This document shows positions 9,291 to 35,147 of a stretch of DNA of 36,911 nt, one piece after another. Origin of the DNA: Planctomycetota bacterium (GTDB lineage: Bacteria > Planctomycetota > Planctomycetia > Pirellulales > Pirellulaceae); contig JAJDEH010000003.1 in assembly GCA_029259935.1 (NCBI GenBank), forward strand, positions 1 through 36,911. Reading direction: 5' to 3'. Numbering within the stretch: the first letter of the stretch is position 1; every line of letters begins with the position of its first letter. Under the pieces are notes generated by a model. It was not told where the DNA came from. It saw nothing but the letters and a program-made list of their open reading frames with translations, and searched no databases. A program made the translations under genes and the position numbers.

Positions 9291-9788
9291 ATGTCGATGT
9301 ACATCGGAGAAGCCCTGGCAGGCGAAGGCAACGAAATCGCTCACATCGATTTGCTGGTCGGCAGCAAAGACGGCCCGGTCGGTGTCGCGTTCGCCAATGC
9401 ACTGGCGCGCCAAAGCGAAGGCCACTCGAACTTGCTGGCCGTGTTGACGCCCAACTTGGCCGTCAAACCCTCGACGGTATTGGTGACCAAGGTCACGATC
9501 AAGGGTATGAAGCAAGCCGTGCAGATGTTCGGCCCCGCGCAGGCGGCGGTTGCCAAAGCGGTCGCAGACGCGGTCGCCGAAGGCACGATTCCCAAGGATC
9601 AAGCGGAAGACCTGGTCATCGTGTGTGGAGTCTTCATTCATCCGGCCGCCGAAGACGACAAGAAGATCTACGACTACAACTACGAAGCCACGAAACAGTC
9701 GATCGTGAGCGCCATGAAAGGCTCGCCCTCGGCGGACGAAATGATCGCCGGCAAGGATTCGGCCGAACACCCCTTCCGGGGATTTTGA
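9291..9788 (+). CDS. fae: Formaldehyde-activating enzyme
   Basis: A 165-residue protein, the usual length for Fae. It catalyses condensation of formaldehyde with tetrahydromethanopterin to methylene-H4MPT, the entry step of the H4MPT-linked formaldehyde oxidation and detoxification route in the cytoplasm. The N-terminus 'YIGEALAGEGNEIAHIDL' is the family signature; His18 corresponds to the proposed catalytic histidine. 'NLAVKPSTVLVTKVTIKG' and 'VFIHPAAEDD' are also characteristic. ATG 9291 follows a good GGAGAG ribosome site. A strong terminator lies just downstream, before mtdB, so this gene may be transcribed at a higher level than its neighbour. Confidence 0.95.
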   Translation: MSMYIGEALAGEGNEIAHIDLLVGSKDGPVGVAFANALARQSEGHSNLLAVLTPNLAVKPSTVLVTKVTIKGMKQAVQMFGPAQAAVAKAVADAVAEGTIPKDQAEDLVIVCGVFIHPAAEDDKKIYDYNYEATKQSIVSAMKGSPSADEMIAGKDSAEHPFRGF

Positions 9789-9826
9789 CGTAGCGAAGTC
9801 TGGCCTAAGAACGATAAGCAAAACTC

Positions 9827-9861
9827 AAACCCGGCTTCGCGCGAGGCCGGGTTTGTTTTCG
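9827..9861 (+). terminator. Intrinsic terminator after fae
   Basis: AAACCCGGC (9827-9835) pairs with GCCGGGTTT (9846-9854), and the 10-base loop can pair further. It is followed by GTTTTC. It stands between fae and mtdB. Confidence 0.8.
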
Positions 9862-9887
9862 TCATGCATGCATAAGCTTTTACCGTG

Positions 9888-10751
9888 ATGAGCAAGCCGA
9901 AGATTCTCGTCCAATTGGATTCCGACCCGCACGCCAGTGTGTTTGACGGCGTCGTGGCCGTCGATTCTGGAGTCGACCATTTGTTCCGGCATCATTCGGT
10001 CGAGGCCGCTCAGGTTCGCGACCTGGTGCACGGCACGATGTTTACTCGCGGTCCGCAAGATTTGCGAAACACGGCAGTTTTTGTCGGCGGATCGGATGTC
10101 GCCGCCGGAGAGAACTTGCTGAAACAAGTCACGAACAGCTTCTTTGGTCCCATGCGCGTCTCGGTGATGATGGACGCCAACGGAGCGAATACCACCGCGG
10201 CCGCCGCCGTGCTTTCGGCGGCGAGACATCTGGATCTCAAGGGAACGAAATCGGCGGTGCTGGCCGCGACGGGGCCCGTGGGCGCGCGAGTCGTTCGCTT
10301 GCTCGCCCGAGCCGGTTCTCAGGTGCATGTCGGTTCACGCAACATGGAACGGGCCGACGACGTATGCCAACAGATTGCGGGACAAGTAGCAGGTGCCGCG
10401 CTCACGCCGCTGGCCACGCACCAACCGGGAGTGTTGCGAGCCGTGCTGGATGATTGCCAAGTCGTATTTGCCGCTGGTGCTTTTGGCATCCAACTGCTGC
10501 CCGAAGATGTGTGGCGTGAGTCGAATTTACAAGTGGCCATCGACATGAATGCCGTTCCACCGGTCGGAATCGAAGGCGTTGACGTGATGGATAGCGCCGC
10601 CGAGCGGCACGGCGCATTGTGCTATGGGGCGATTGGCGTTGGCAACTTGAAGATGAAAATTCACAAGGCGGCGATCAAGAAGTTGTTTGAATCCAATGAC
10701 CAGGTCTTCGACGCGGAAGAGATCTTCGCCATCGGCCAAGAGCTACTTTAA
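9888..10751 (+). CDS. mtdB: NAD(P)-dependent methylene-tetrahydromethanopterin dehydrogenase
   Basis: A 287-residue protein of the MtdA/MtdB family, which oxidises methylene-H4MPT to methenyl-H4MPT with NAD(P)+, the step after Fae. The N-terminal catalytic domain has 'LVQLDSDPHASVFDGVVAVDSGVD' and 'FFGPMRVSVMMDANGANTTAAA'. The Rossmann domain begins near residue 120 with 'AVLAATGPVGARVVRLLARAG' and the dinucleotide-selecting 'VHVGSRN'. The frame allows GTG at 9885, immediately followed by ATG 9888; I use the ATG. No strong ribosome site is visible. MtdB is favoured over MtdA because of the fae neighbour and the H4MPT context, but the two are close relatives. The 3' end overlaps the convergent zinc-ribbon gene by nine bases. 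Confidence 0.9.
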   Translation: MSKPKILVQLDSDPHASVFDGVVAVDSGVDHLFRHHSVEAAQVRDLVHGTMFTRGPQDLRNTAVFVGGSDVAAGENLLKQVTNSFFGPMRVSVMMDANGANTTAAAAVLSAARHLDLKGTKSAVLAATGPVGARVVRLLARAGSQVHVGSRNMERADDVCQQIAGQVAGAALTPLATHQPGVLRAVLDDCQVVFAAGAFGIQLLPEDVWRESNLQVAIDMNAVPPVGIEGVDVMDSAAERHGALCYGAIGVGNLKMKIHKAAIKKLFESNDQVFDAEEIFAIGQELL

Positions 10752-11699
10752 GAAGATCAACACCAGCAATCCCGCCGTCAGCACGATCACGCAAAACGCA
10801 AACACTATCGCGTTTTTCAAAAAACGGGTCTGCGATTTCTCTTGCGACGTGAGTGTCCGTAGATTGCGTTCTTTTTCGCGATAGTTGACTTTCCGTCGAG
10901 CGTCGACTGCAACCAAGTCGCCATCCGGGTCGGGGACGAAAATTTGATGCGACGTCTTGGAACTGGCGGGCTCGCCAGTTTCGTGGGCTTGGGCTGGTTC
11001 GGCCGCCAATGTTTGGTCGTTGGTCGAGAGCGGAGCCACGTCGGCGGGCGGAGGAAGCGGGGTGGCGACGGTTGCCATAATCGGCGGATCGGCGGCGTCC
11101 GATGTGTTATCCGTTGGCAACGGAGGTTCCGCCATTCCACTATCAGCGATGGGCGGCGCGGCACGCTGATGCGAAACGGGTGGCGGTGGCGGTTCAGCGA
11201 CGCCAGAGGATATTGAATCGTCGCCCGGCGCTGGCGGCGGAGGAGGAGGGAGAGGTGGACTGGTGCTGTCCATCGATGGCGGCTCAGCGGCGGGTGGGAC
11301 TATCTTCGGCGGTTCCCCGAACGGGCTTGGCGCGGCCACTGTGTCTGCAGTTGGCGGGTCGCCATCCATCGGTTCAACAGGTCGCGCCGGCTGCGTGCCC
11401 AAAATAGGCGGCGGTTCAGGCGGCCCATGCCGTTCCGCGTTTGGAGTAGGGTCTTGTTCTGCAGGTTCGGACTCTGCGTAGCCGGGCGGATAATAGTTCT
11501 CGGACAGAGACGCCAGCAGAGGCGGGGCCGGGGGCACGAGATCGGTCGACGCATCCGCGGGCGGTTTCGATGGATTCGTGGGAGGCGGCGCGATTGAAAT
11601 AGGGCTCTGACAATAAGGACAGGCCACTTCTTGGGCCGCGTCCGCCGGACGTTGGAAGCTTTCCGTGCAGTTGGGGCAGTTGAATTGCTGGGAGTCCAT
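10743..11699 (-). CDS. Zinc-ribbon, proline-rich, tail-anchored membrane protein
   Basis: A 318-residue protein. The N-terminus has two CxxC pairs ('CPNC' at 8-11, 'CPYC' at 28-31), a zinc ribbon. A ~200-residue low-complexity stretch of Pro, Ala, Glu and Ser follows, with polyproline runs. A short conserved-looking block comes next ('IFVPDPDGDLVAVDARRKVNYREKERN'), and one membrane helix ends the protein (about 294-317). With its C-terminal anchor the ribbon should face the cytoplasm. It repeats the design of the 4835-5875 protein with the helix moved to the end. Function unknown; a membrane-tethered adaptor is only a guess. No clear ribosome site precedes ATG 11699. Confidence 0.72.
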   Translation of the reverse strand: MDSQQFNCPNCTESFQRPADAAQEVACPYCQSPISIAPPPTNPSKPPADASTDLVPPAPPLLASLSENYYPPGYAESEPAEQDPTPNAERHGPPEPPPILGTQPARPVEPMDGDPPTADTVAAPSPFGEPPKIVPPAAEPPSMDSTSPPLPPPPPPAPGDDSISSGVAEPPPPPVSHQRAAPPIADSGMAEPPLPTDNTSDAADPPIMATVATPLPPPADVAPLSTNDQTLAAEPAQAHETGEPASSKTSHQIFVPDPDGDLVAVDARRKVNYREKERNLRTLTSQEKSQTRFLKNAIVFAFCVIVLTAGLLVLIFLK

Positions 11700-21593: not shown

Positions 21594-22649
21594 TTAGGCG
21601 TTCTCGAAGGCTTCGTCGCCGTATTCGTATTCGAATTCGTCCGACTCAGCATCATCGCTCTCGTCTTCCTCGTTCCAGGCGACTTCTTCCTTGACCGGCA
21701 AACCGGGTTTTGCGATATGCGGTTCGGGAAGCACGATATTTGAGCGGCGCGGCTTATCCGACTCGTCGATCTCGTCACCTTCACCGCCGCGCATTTGGTC
21801 CCAATCCGCAAGGCTGACCATGACTTCACGGGCTTGCGATCCAGCATAAGGGCCGACGATGCCGTCCTCGGCCATAAAGTCGATCAGGCGAGCCGCGCGC
21901 CCATACCCGATGCCCAACGTCCTTTGCAACAGTGACACGCTGCCTCGGCCTTCACGGACCACGATATCGACCGCGCCTTCATAGAGATCGTCGCGTTTTT
22001 TCAGCGGGCCGTGTTCCTGCTCTTCGCCTGGCTCTTCCACTTGAATGTTCACCAACTCCTTCACAAAGTTCTGCTCATCGGTGCTAACGGCATCCGTTAC
22101 TGATTCGATTTCTTCGTCGCTAAGATACGTACCCTGACCGCGCAACAGGGTGCTTGTCCCCGGCCAGAGGAAGAGCATGTCGCCGTTTCCGAGCAGTTTG
22201 TCCGCTCCCATTTCGTCCAGCACGACGCGGCTGTCGGTGCGGCTGGCGACTTGGAACGAAATACGGGCGGGCAGATTCGATTTGATGAGACCCGTGATGA
22301 CATCCACCGTCGGTTTCTGAGTCGCCAGGATGAGGTGAATTCCGACGGCCCGGCTCTTTTGTGCGAGCCGAATAATATGTTGCTCGACCTCCTTGCCCGA
22401 GGTCATCATCAAATCGGCCATTTCGTCCGCCACAATGACGATGAAGGGCAAGTGTTGGGGAATCTGCGACTTCTCTTCCTCGGATTCGATCTTCAACCGG
22501 TCGAACAGTTCTTCTTCGCTCAGTTGGTTGTAACTGCTGACGTGCCGCACTCCCGCGCGGGCCAGCAGTTGATAACGCTCTTCCATCTTTTCGACCGCCC
22601 AGGCCAAGATGGCTTCGGCCTTGCGCATGTCCGTCACGACGGGATGCAT
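21594..22649 (-). pseudogene. ftsK: ftsK, C-terminal part after an in-frame stop codon
   Basis: A 351-residue open frame beginning with ATG directly after the amber codon that ends the upstream part. It continues the FtsK motor without loss: 'HPVVTDMRKAEAILAWAV', Walker B 'FIVIVADEMADLMM' (about 69-82), 'LILATQKPTVDVITG' and 'NLPARISFQVASRTDSR'. The DNA-sequence-reading gamma winged helix lies at about 222-285 ('GRGSVSLLQRTLGIGYGRAARLID'). It then has a short acidic tail. It lacks Walker A and the membrane domain, so alone it cannot be a working translocase. No ribosome site precedes the ATG. Functional only if the stop is suppressed, is a sequencing error, or the two parts associate. Confidence 0.8.
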
Positions 22650-24212
22650 CTAGTGCGGCAATCGGGCATAGCCGCTTAGCTCGACCATCTTGGGGTCGAT
22701 CATCAGCATCCGCACTTCATCAGGCCGCCGCGTCATGAGGATCGACGAGATGATGGCGTTCAAACAGACGCTCTTGCCCGTTCCCGTACGTCCGGCGATC
22801 AGCAGATGCGGCAATGTCGAGAGGTCGACGGCCAGCGGGTTGCCAGAAACGTCCTTGCCCAAGAATAGTGGAATCCGCATCTTTTTGACTTTACTCGTCG
22901 CCTCCTCCATCACTTCGCGCAAGCGGACGACATGACGCGTCTCGTTGGGTACTTCGATACCAACGGTGTTCTTGCCCGGGATGGGTGCGACGATGCGGAC
23001 GCTGGGGACGCGCAAGGCGATCGCCAGATCGTCCGCCAGACCGGTGATCTTGGAAAGTCGCAAGCCGGCTTCGAGCTGAACCTCGTATTGGGCAATCACG
23101 GGGCCGGTTTCGATCTCGACTACTTTGACCTTGAAGCCGAATTCGCCAAAAGTTTTTTCCAACACTTTGGCCTTGCGGCGCACTTCCGACTCTTGGTTAT
23201 CGCCCGACACGTCATCGCCTTCGATCAGCAGGTCGATATCTGGCAGATCATATTCGCCTGGCTGCTCCTTGTGATCGGGATCGGCTTCATCAAGTTGGCT
23301 CATCACCTTCAGCCGTTCGGCGTCGTCCTCGTTGGAACCAAGTCGGAAGTGGGGCGACTGGCTGTTCGGTTGCGACTTCTTTCGCTTTTTCTTCTTCACG
23401 ACCACGGGAACCGGTTCTTCTTCTTCCGCCTCATCCGTGGCAGCTTCCGATTCCGCTTCGTCCAGGTTCTCTTCGGCTTCGGCCGGTTCGATCCGCGAGG
23501 GAGCTTCCGCGGGTTGGACTTTCTTGCCGCCAATGCGTATGGAGACCGTCGTGTCCTCCTCCTCCGCGTCTTCCTCCAAATCGGAAGCGGGTCGAGGCGG
23601 CGTTTTTTGCAGCGAGTGACGCAGCGCGGCCGTCATCACCAGCAATTGGCCCGCCTTGCGTATCGTTCGAATGATCGCGTAGTCGGTGCACAGCAGGAGC
23701 CCGCCCAAAATACAACTGGAGGCCAAGATCACTCCGCCAAACGTGGCGAATTGCATCTCCAAAAGGCCCGCGCCGAGTACTCCCAAATATCCGCCGCTGC
23801 CGACGACGGGTCCTGGCGACAACGCGGGAAACAACAGGGCGGCCAGTGTCGTGACCCCCACCAACGACGCGGCCCAACCCACGGTGCGCAAGATCGGCGT
23901 GTCGATATCCTTGCGTCGCAACATAACGAAGTCGACCACTCCGAGCGCCAGCACAACGTAGTAAGCCCCTAGGCCAAGCCCGTTCAGCAGCACGTCGGCC
24001 GCGATGGCTCCCCAGCGTCCACAGGCATTATTAATCTCTTCATTCGCCGGATGAACAAGCTGGTCGGGTTGATAGAGCGCATTGAAGGGTGGGACCACTT
24101 CTCCGATGCTATCGGCCGGGTCGTAGGTGGCCAGCGCCAAGCCCAAGAACAGCACGACGACAAACAGGCCGAGCGCGAGAAGATCCAATTTGAGACTTCG
24201 TTTTTCGAACAT
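22650..24212 (-). pseudogene. ftsK: ftsK, N-terminal part ending at an amber codon
   Basis: A 520-residue open frame with four membrane helices (about 8-30, 70-97, 110-133, 155-180). An acidic/basic linker follows (about 205-330), then the start of the DNA translocase motor: 'PVIAQYEVQLEAGLRLSKI', 'IVAPIPGKNTVGIEVPN', and Walker A 'GRTGTGKS' at 474-481. It stops after 'MIDPKMVELSGYARLPH' at TAG (plus 22650-22652). Intact FtsK proteins continue through this point, usually with a Leu where the stop is. FtsK pumps chromosomal DNA through the division septum and activates XerCD recombination. ATG 24212 opens directly before the first helix. Confidence 0.85.
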
Positions 24213-24683: not shown

Positions 24684-25553
24684 TCAGACTGCCCGGAAGT
24701 TCCTCAGCGGCTTGAGCAACCGCGGCTCCTTGGGAGCGAGGATGGAAATTAACTCACCCGTTCGGTCGACGGCGGCGATTTCAGCGTGGGCCAAAGAGCG
24801 AGAGTTTTCGATCGACAATCCGTTTCCCAGTCGCTGCTCTTCCGCCTCGGTGAGTTCAATTTTTGGCAAGAACGCGACGGCCCGAGTTGCCGGTTGCAGG
24901 TACTCGGAGAGTGTTTGGGAACTGACTTGATTCATCGGTACCGCGTCTTCAATCGTAAAGTCACCGATGGCGGTTCGCGCAAGGGCCGACATGACCGCCG
25001 CACTGCCCAACGATTCGGCCAGATCGCGGCCCAGCGAACGGACATAGGTTCCCGAACCGCAAGCGATGTCGAGCGTTAACCGCGGATATTCGTACCGCAC
25101 CAATTGCAATTCGAAAATCGTCACGCCGCGCGGCTCTAAAACGACCGGCGCACCCTGGCGGGCCAACTGATAAGCTCGCTTGCCGCCGACCTTCAATGCC
25201 GAATAGGCCGGCGGACGCTGGCGAATCTCGCCCGTGAATTGTCCCAGCGCCGTCTCTATTTGCTTCTCGGATGGCCGCGGTGCCCTTTCGAGTTCGACCA
25301 CGTGCCCCTCAACGTCTTCCGTCTCGCTGTGACGGCCCAACAGAAATGTCGCCAGGTACCGCTTTGGCATTCGATGAATGTAATCGATCAAGCGAGTTGC
25401 CTTGCCAACGCAAACCAGAAGCACCCCGGTGGCCAACGGATCAAGCGTACCCGCATGCCCCGCTTTGTGCGGCTTGACCAGCCGTTGAATATGGTTGACC
25501 ACATCCCGCGAAGTCACGCCGGATGGTTTTGCGATATTCAACAAGCCAAACAT
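24684..25553 (-). CDS. truB: tRNA pseudouridine-55 synthase
   Basis: A 289-residue protein of the TruB family, which converts U55 in the T-loop of tRNAs to pseudouridine. The N-terminus 'GLLNIAKPSGVTSRDVVN' and the catalytic block 'KAGHAGTLDPLATGVL' (Asp38) are diagnostic. 'RYLATFLLGRHSETEDVEG', 'QRPPAYSALKVGGKRAYQLAR' and 'CGSGTYVRSLGRDLAE' also match. A short C-terminal domain follows. The frame can begin at TTG 25568; I chose ATG 25553 because 'MFGLLNIAKP' is the usual family start. A small zinc-ribbon gene lies 69 bases upstream on the same strand, so they may share a transcript. Confidence 0.95.
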   Translation of the reverse strand: MFGLLNIAKPSGVTSRDVVNHIQRLVKPHKAGHAGTLDPLATGVLLVCVGKATRLIDYIHRMPKRYLATFLLGRHSETEDVEGHVVELERAPRPSEKQIETALGQFTGEIRQRPPAYSALKVGGKRAYQLARQGAPVVLEPRGVTIFELQLVRYEYPRLTLDIACGSGTYVRSLGRDLAESLGSAAVMSALARTAIGDFTIEDAVPMNQVSSQTLSEYLQPATRAVAFLPKIELTEAEEQRLGNGLSIENSRSLAHAEIAAVDRTGELISILAPKEPRLLKPLRNFRAV

Positions 25554-25622
25554 GAAGCCTATTCTCAAGTTCCTAATTCATCGAATTCGCAAGACTCGCC
25601 CTGTTACGAGGCGAATGTGTTT

Positions 25623-33756: not shown

Positions 33757-34240
33757 CTATTCGTTGGGCGTCTTTGGCCGTGACTTGAGACGCAACACGT
33801 AACTCGTCGCATTGCCGTTTGCAGTCACCAAGTGCCGGCCCTCGGGACTGAAGGATAACGCGGTGATCTTGCCCTGTTTTGGGCCAATTTGGATTACATC
33901 GTGCAACTTACCTGCCTTCCAGTCCCAAAGTCGGACGGCACCATCCGTGCCGGCGGACGCAAGCAGCTTGCCGTCGGAAGAGAACTGAACTGAGTACACC
34001 GAATCTTGAAGACCGGCCAGCGTGTGAACGGCTTTCCCTGTTTCGACCTCCCAAATGCGGATGGTGTCATCTTCGCTTGCCGAGGCCAAGTACCGTCCCT
34101 GAGGATCGAAATCGAAACTACCCACATCCGCGGTGTGGCCGGTGAGTTTACGAACCTCTGTCCACGTACTTCTGTCCCAGAGCTTTATCGAATTGCCGTC
34201 GGACGATGTTGCCAGCAGCCGGCCATCAGGAAGAAGGCAA
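33757..34240 (-). pseudogene. C-terminal fragment of a WD40-repeat protein gene
   Basis: Minus-strand translation gives about four WD40 blades in a row: 'PDGRLLATSSDGNSIKLWD', 'GHTADVGSFDFDPQGRYLASASEDDTIRIWE', 'SVYSVQFSSDGKLLASAGTDGAVRLWD' and 'ITALSFSPEGRHLV'. It ends 'RPKTPNE' at a stop. WD40 propellers need about seven blades, so the N-terminal part is missing. The open frame runs to 34422, but above about 34240 the residues no longer resemble WD40, because the DNA there carries a WD40 blade on the other strand. It looks like a gene broken by the adjacent rearrangement. Confidence 0.75.
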
Positions 34241-34242
34241 CG

Positions 34243-34371
34243 TGTATGCGCGCATCCGTGGGCAGGGACCGGCACCTCCGAATTTGGGAGATTCCCTCGG
34301 GCAATGAAGTCAGATCCGGGCGTGCACACGCGTCCTCGATAAACTGTGTCCGGTTTAGCGCCAACAGCGAC
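34243..34371 (+). pseudogene. Inverted WD40 fragment
   Basis: On the plus strand this short stretch translates as 'GRDRHLRIWEIPSGNEVRSG' followed by 'AHASSINCVRFSANSD', an unmistakable WD40 blade end and the next blade's start. It is opposite in orientation to the WD40 fragment on its left. CGTGT at 34241-34245 and ACACG at 34370-34374 form a 5-bp inverted repeat at its two borders. Flipping it in place would put it on the same strand as the neighbouring fragment, though one base out of frame. Confidence 0.65.
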
Positions 34372-34676
34372 ACGCCCGAAAGCAACATCGAAGGCTCCGT
34401 GGCATCCATCCGCAACCGGCACGAACCTGGTTCGGATTTCAGGGCTTCAAACGTACCCGCTTCCAGTAGACGGTAATACAGCCAGTAGCCGCCGCCGTCG
34501 AAGTGCAACAGCTTCATCCGGTCGCGACGCCGATTGATGAAAATAAACAAACTGCCATCGGTCGGATCGGCCCCGAACTCCTCGCGGACCAGGCCGCTGA
34601 GCCCATTGAATCCCTTGCGCATATCCGTGATGCCGGTGTAGGCATGGATCTTGAGGTCACCAGAAAAGTTCAACAT
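34368..34676 (-). pseudogene. tnpB: IS66 TnpB accessory protein, 3' end replaced
   Basis: The first ~103 residues match IS66 TnpB ('Orf2'): 'HAYTGITDMRKGFNGLSGLV', 'GSLFIFINRRRDRMKLLHFDGGGYWLYYRLLE', 'GTFEALKSEPGSCRLRM' and 'LLSGVSL'. Family members end at about 115-120 residues. Here the frame runs on to 34185 with unrelated residues encoded by the antisense of the WD40 fragment. The last ~12 native residues are lost. TnpB is needed for transposition together with TnpA and TnpC; its biochemical role is unclear. Confidence 0.8.
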
Positions 34677-35068
34677 GACCGGCCCTCCGATCGCCCGGCC
34701 CGCAGGGCGAGTACTTGCTTGACCACCGCCTCGACGACCGCCCCCACAACCGGCGGGTCGTTGCCAAGTTCGATTTCGACTCCGTCCGCCAACCGAATCG
34801 TGGCCTGCTGTTGACGGAAAATCGGAGCCGTTAGCTGCACCGGCTTAAACGCGGGCGAAGGGGCTGCGCCAACTCCAACGGGCTCGTCACCGGCCTCGCC
34901 GCCGCTTCGCTTGCCCGCACCCTTGAGTCTCTTCCGCCACTGATAAAACGACGGCTGGGAAACACCTTCGGATTCACAAAACTGCGTGACCGTTTGAGCA
35001 GACTTCTCAAATCGGTCAAGACGGACCGTCCACAGCCTGACTTTGGTCGGATTTGATCCACGCGACAT
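34670..35068 (-). CDS. tnpA: IS66 TnpA-type helix-turn-helix protein
   Basis: A 132-residue protein. An N-terminal helix-turn-helix ('VTQFCESEGVSQPSFYQWRKRLKG', about 25-48) is followed by a Gly/Ala-rich linker and a C-terminal block ('IRLADGVEIELGNDPPVVGAVV') typical of IS66 Orf1 proteins. ATG 35068 has AGGAG close upstream; an upstream in-frame ATG (35119) is less likely. It overlaps tnpB by seven bases, the normal arrangement for coupled translation in this family. The reading frame appears intact though the element is not. Confidence 0.8.
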   Translation of the reverse strand: MSRGSNPTKVRLWTVRLDRFEKSAQTVTQFCESEGVSQPSFYQWRKRLKGAGKRSGGEAGDEPVGVGAAPSPAFKPVQLTAPIFRQQQATIRLADGVEIELGNDPPVVGAVVEAVVKQVLALRAGRSEGRSC

Positions 35069-35147
35069 ACCTGGCTCCTGATAGGGAATTTCATCCAAAA
35101 CTCCCAACCTAAACCACACGTCAACAACGGCTCTGATGCGCGCTTAC

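Follow-up and report, generated by a model that had tools for sequence, protein, structure and literature searches.

The ftsK gene of a Planctomycetota bacterium (family Pirellulaceae; GenBank assembly GCA_029259935.1, contig JAJDEH010000003.1) is interrupted by one in-frame TAG, which raises the question of whether the stop belongs to the biology of the organism or to the sequence record. We examined the gene together with its window, meaning the whole stretch of 36,911 nucleotides analyzed here (positions 1 to 36,911 of the contig), to which all coordinates refer. The reading we favor, and consider probable, is that this is an ordinary planctomycete ftsK DNA translocase gene in which the TAG is a private single-codon anomaly, most likely a sequencing or assembly error.

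The ftsK gene, its stop and its neighborhood

The gene lies on the minus strand (24212-21594) and has a single in-frame TAG in an otherwise open frame. From the ATG at 24212, a 520-codon frame (22653..24212) with the C-terminal end ...YARLPH encodes the 4TM membrane region, the alpha domain, and the first part of the motor. The TAG follows at 22652-22650 as residue 521 (residues are numbered along the read-through product, with X at the stop); the frame then resumes without a gap at the ATG at 22649 and runs for another 350 codons to a TAA at 21596-21594. This 3' piece (21594..22649; 351 codons plus TAA) contains the remaining motor and the gamma domain. Walker A (GRTGTGKS) lies upstream of the stop (residues 474-481; 22770..22793, minus strand), and the Walker B region (FIVIVADEM) lies downstream (residues ~590-598; 22419..22445, minus strand). 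Under the standard code the two motifs are not in one continuous chain, as the TAG at 521 falls between them.

Pfam matches to the 5' piece are FtsK_4TM, FtsK_alpha, and positions 1-92 of the 221-position FtsK_SpoIIIE profile, while the 3' piece matches positions 95-220 of that profile together with FtsK_gamma. With the profile running from 1-92 straight on to 95-220, the junction has lost no sequence, and because the two are contiguous pieces of one conserved protein in one frame, the TAG is not a chance effect of how open reading frames (ORFs) were drawn. Neither piece was found to contain a second lesion. The protein has the parts of known FtsK/SpoIIIE DNA translocases in the same order (4TM, alpha, RecA-like motor with Walker A and B, gamma), and departs from them where an in-frame TAG stands in place of a leucine codon between the Walker motifs. 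In the comparison with solved FtsK motors (PDB 2iut, 2ius, and 2iuu), read-through residues 319-800 align to 2iut, where a leucine stands opposite the stop. A first-pass annotation had described an ftsK split by a single in-frame TAG falling between the two Walker motifs; that description holds, and the pieces are contiguous.

The gene directly upstream on the same strand is truB (24684..25568, minus strand), which is also upstream of ftsK in two of the 47 loci listed from relatives (L001 and L002). We considered whether the interrupted gene could be a paralog at an unusual place, and the shared truB neighbor disfavors this, on the basis of those two loci out of the 47.

Several other parts of the window are worth recording for their own sake. 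IS66-type transposase genes occupy the 33757-35119 region, with TnpB_IS66 at 34185-34676 and a weak, below-cutoff match to HTH_Tnp_1 at 34670-35119; they abut and overlap a WD40-repeat fragment (33757-34422), and judging from the sequence the arrangement looks like an insertion sequence remnant in or beside a WD40 gene. At 9291-10751, a gene for formaldehyde-activating enzyme (Fae) adjoins one for methylene-tetrahydromethanopterin dehydrogenase, making a pair of H4MPT-linked C1 genes. The ORF at 228-2903 combines a sulfatase, HEAT repeats, and a 3-keto-disaccharide hydrolase domain.

The stop position in relatives

Wherever a relative's alignment covered the site, the residue at the stop position was leucine. 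We fetched 80 ftsK loci, left out three, and compared the remaining 77 at the stop codon, all of which have a leucine codon in place of the TAG. At the protein level, 240 sequences were listed, 21 of which do not cover the site; the other 219 all have leucine there. The comparison with relatives that the first-pass annotation had proposed thus supports its view of a single-codon change at a leucine position. Five of the 77 loci do show internal stops in their alignments; these lie beyond the gamma domain (query positions 803-821), and we read them as normal gene ends.

Genome surveys gave the same picture. In each of 11 chosen relatives, ftsK was found at one place and without a stop. At the order level, 272 of 296 genomes had an ftsK match, and the 150 match rows listed, which come from 148 of those 272 genomes, are all free of internal stops. 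At the class level, we searched 397 genomes with a pattern placing a TRR codon (the stops or Trp) between the PH and M.P of the ftsK motif. The leucine-codon form of the motif had matches in 322 of these genomes. The TRR pattern matched in 12, about as often as a control pattern (13), and several of the 12 matches translate as PH-stop-M-x-P-V by chance. A split shared with other genomes was sought by opening all 12 places and was rejected, since none of them matched ftsK at E 1e-5. The stop form at ftsK was therefore found in 0 of the 397 class genomes, and together with the 150 stop-free order-level rows this means that no ftsK split common to the relatives was found. From these sequence comparisons, the TAG appears to be private to one contig and absent from all relatives examined.

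Copy number in the same survey is of interest for whether a second gene could compensate. Among the 148 genomes in the listed rows, a pair of near-full-length ftsK matches within a single assembly is seen only in G061 and G153; the survey counts two matches for some other genomes as well, with one of the two rows falling outside the listing. The two matches of G153 share a contig and have identical scores; those of G061 are on separate contigs and differ. Assembly could account for either pair. Planctopirus limnophila has one copy of ftsK, which resisted deletion, unlike ftsI, ftsW, and mreB (PMC6952346); a genome-wide screen in the same species likewise classed it as essential (PMC10632474). 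A fixed null allele would accordingly be surprising.

Constraint downstream of the stop and the adjacent ATG

If the stop were old and inactivating, the sequence beyond it should have begun to decay. In an alignment of the window protein with 120 relatives, we compared the regions upstream (residues 323-520) and downstream (522-800) of the stop. Near-invariant columns are retained in full on both sides (114 of 114 upstream, 162 of 162 downstream). The terminal branch of the window sequence, with the topology fixed, measures 0.084 upstream and 0.121 downstream, a downstream/upstream ratio of 1.44; the median ratio is 1.16, and a ratio of at least 1.44 is seen in 44 of the 121 taxa, counting the window. 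With free topologies, the window branch comes 27th among 121 for each of the two regions. The top-scoring database protein is 74% identical over 99% of the query, which makes the window branch a long one, and a branch of this length without marks of decay leaves a change that is an error, very recent, or tolerated. An old pseudogene is ruled out by the retained constraint and the ordinary branch ratio. The sequence after the stop is thus as well conserved as the first-pass annotation had stated, and the lack of decay downstream agrees with its judgment that the change is either very recent or an error.

The same annotation had taken the ATG directly after the TAG as a hint of re-initiation and a two-piece motor, and this we do not find supported. 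The ATG specifies the Met conserved in the PHLMHPV motif of the family, and it is the next codon after the stop position in 46 of the 47 loci L001-L047. It is inherited, and so gives no sign of a new start; we do not count it as evidence of an evolved restart. Pairing of the 20 bases before this ATG with the anti-Shine-Dalgarno sequence is +0.3 kcal/mol, that is, with no Shine-Dalgarno-like pairing, and values as good or better were obtained for 20 of 21 chosen gene starts and for about 90% of the 944 ATGs in the window. This says little, since the median is -2.2 for gene starts and background ATGs alike, making such pairing a weak criterion in this genome. As an observation apart from the stop, Shine-Dalgarno use in the window's genome seems weak, the chosen gene starts being no stronger at the median than random ATGs.

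A database protein search yielded 77 Met-initial FtsK fragments, 16 of which start at exactly the Met after the stop, the commonest single start and also the point where the search query began. Conserved Mets elsewhere (502, 493, and 504) open other fragments. Of the 16, twelve come from contigs no longer than about 4 kb and four from contigs of 7.8-22.8 kb. These short proteins (P0136, P0137, P0141, P0205, P0220, P0222, and ten others) are probably fragments or start choices.

TAG usage and the origin of the stop

In amber-recoded genes, TAG is read as an amino acid, or pyrrolysine. The window ftsK resembles such genes in that its single in-frame TAG is followed by conserved sequence, and differs from them in its setting, where TAG terminates four other ORFs: 10743-11699, rsmH, the cpYpsA/molybdenum-carrier-like gene, and the SMP-30 gene. 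The first-pass annotation had named the last three as ending in TAG, correctly, and ORF 10743-11699 can be added to them. These are 4 of 27 chosen ORFs; that the other 26 lack inner stops is so by construction and was not counted as evidence. Three of the four TAG-terminated ORFs (rsmH, cpYpsA, and SMP-30) were scanned for domains, and in each the domain reaches near the profile end before the TAG. No tRNA genes were found within the window. Genome-wide reassignment of TAG is rejected on the four terminators and the three near-complete domains, in agreement with the earlier opinion that general reassignment is unlikely, and we regard TAG recoding as unlikely here. Searches for stop-codon reassignment in Planctomycetes returned nothing on the topic, going by titles, and no split of this kind was described in the titles and opening lines of abstracts retrieved for split, truncated, interrupted, or pseudogene ftsK and for FtsK with an in-frame stop.

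The stop stands alone, appears private, and has no decay behind it, and the gene that it interrupts is single-copy and essential in the relative studied; the best explanation is an error in the contig at the level of single bases. We infer error rather than a rare true variant; FtsK would then presumably be made in one piece in living members of the population, and the TAG would have no mechanism of its own. Two observations count against the error reading. Most of the 20 other window ORFs scanned with Pfam have domains near full profile length, which, though not a systematic test, suggests that the contig is not generally poor, and the 16 database fragments that share a start at this Met include the four on longer contigs. 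The next most likely source of the TAG, doubtful though we hold it to be, is a very recent nonsense variant really present in the sequenced DNA of this strain or lineage, either lethal and transient or tolerated through a second ftsK/spoIIIE copy. The change of one codon without further decay fits this reading, and the paired matches in G061 and G153, if not assembly effects, make a second copy conceivable. Against it stand the rarity of such pairs (two among the 148 genomes with listed rows), the single place of ftsK in each of the 11 chosen relatives, the truB neighbor that the window copy shares with L001 and L002, and the single-copy, essential status of ftsK in Planctopirus (PMC6952346, PMC10632474). 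Compared with recent nonsense pseudogenes or strain variants in general, the window ftsK is alike in its single stop unseen in relatives, and unlike in its lack of decay and in being essential in a studied relative.

The readings that give the stop a function fare less well. If the TAG is real, near-cognate decoding or a suppressor tRNA-CUA might let ribosomes pass it, so that full-length FtsK would be made in lowered or regulated amounts. Such read-through would account for the full constraint downstream, which is equally expected under an error; since TAG ends four other ORFs, the window has no tRNA, and no relative examined has a stop at this position, we consider it improbable. In the re-initiation reading, translation would end at the TAG and start again at the ATG next to it, making the motor as two pieces with Walker A on one and Walker B on the other. 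This draws on the in-frame position of that ATG and on the short database proteins with the same Met start. The ATG is inherited, the fragment search was seeded at that very Met, most of the fragments come from short contigs, and none of the 397 class genomes has the stop form at ftsK; we rate re-initiation as the least probable of the readings, and very improbable in itself. For read-through and a split motor alike, the support is the stop itself and nothing beyond. What survives of the earlier interpretation is the change at a leucine codon, its recent or erroneous origin, and the low likelihood of general reassignment; the inference from the ATG to re-initiation or a two-piece motor does not, given the conserved Met, the lack of any surveyed genome with the split, and, as weak evidence, the missing Shine-Dalgarno-like pairing.

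Were the TAG a genuine, fixed codon, the cell would depend on an essential P-loop DNA pump working via stop read-through or as two chains split inside the ATPase core: a leaky amber codon would set the dose of the chromosome pump, or a two-chain motor divided between Walker A and Walker B would assemble in trans. We think this quite improbable. If true, it would be surprising in planctomycetes, where ftsK is reported to be essential and several other classical division genes are not (PMC6952346, PMC10632474). The present value of the case is one of caution, in that a conserved Met right after a stop mimics a designed restart when it is merely inherited.
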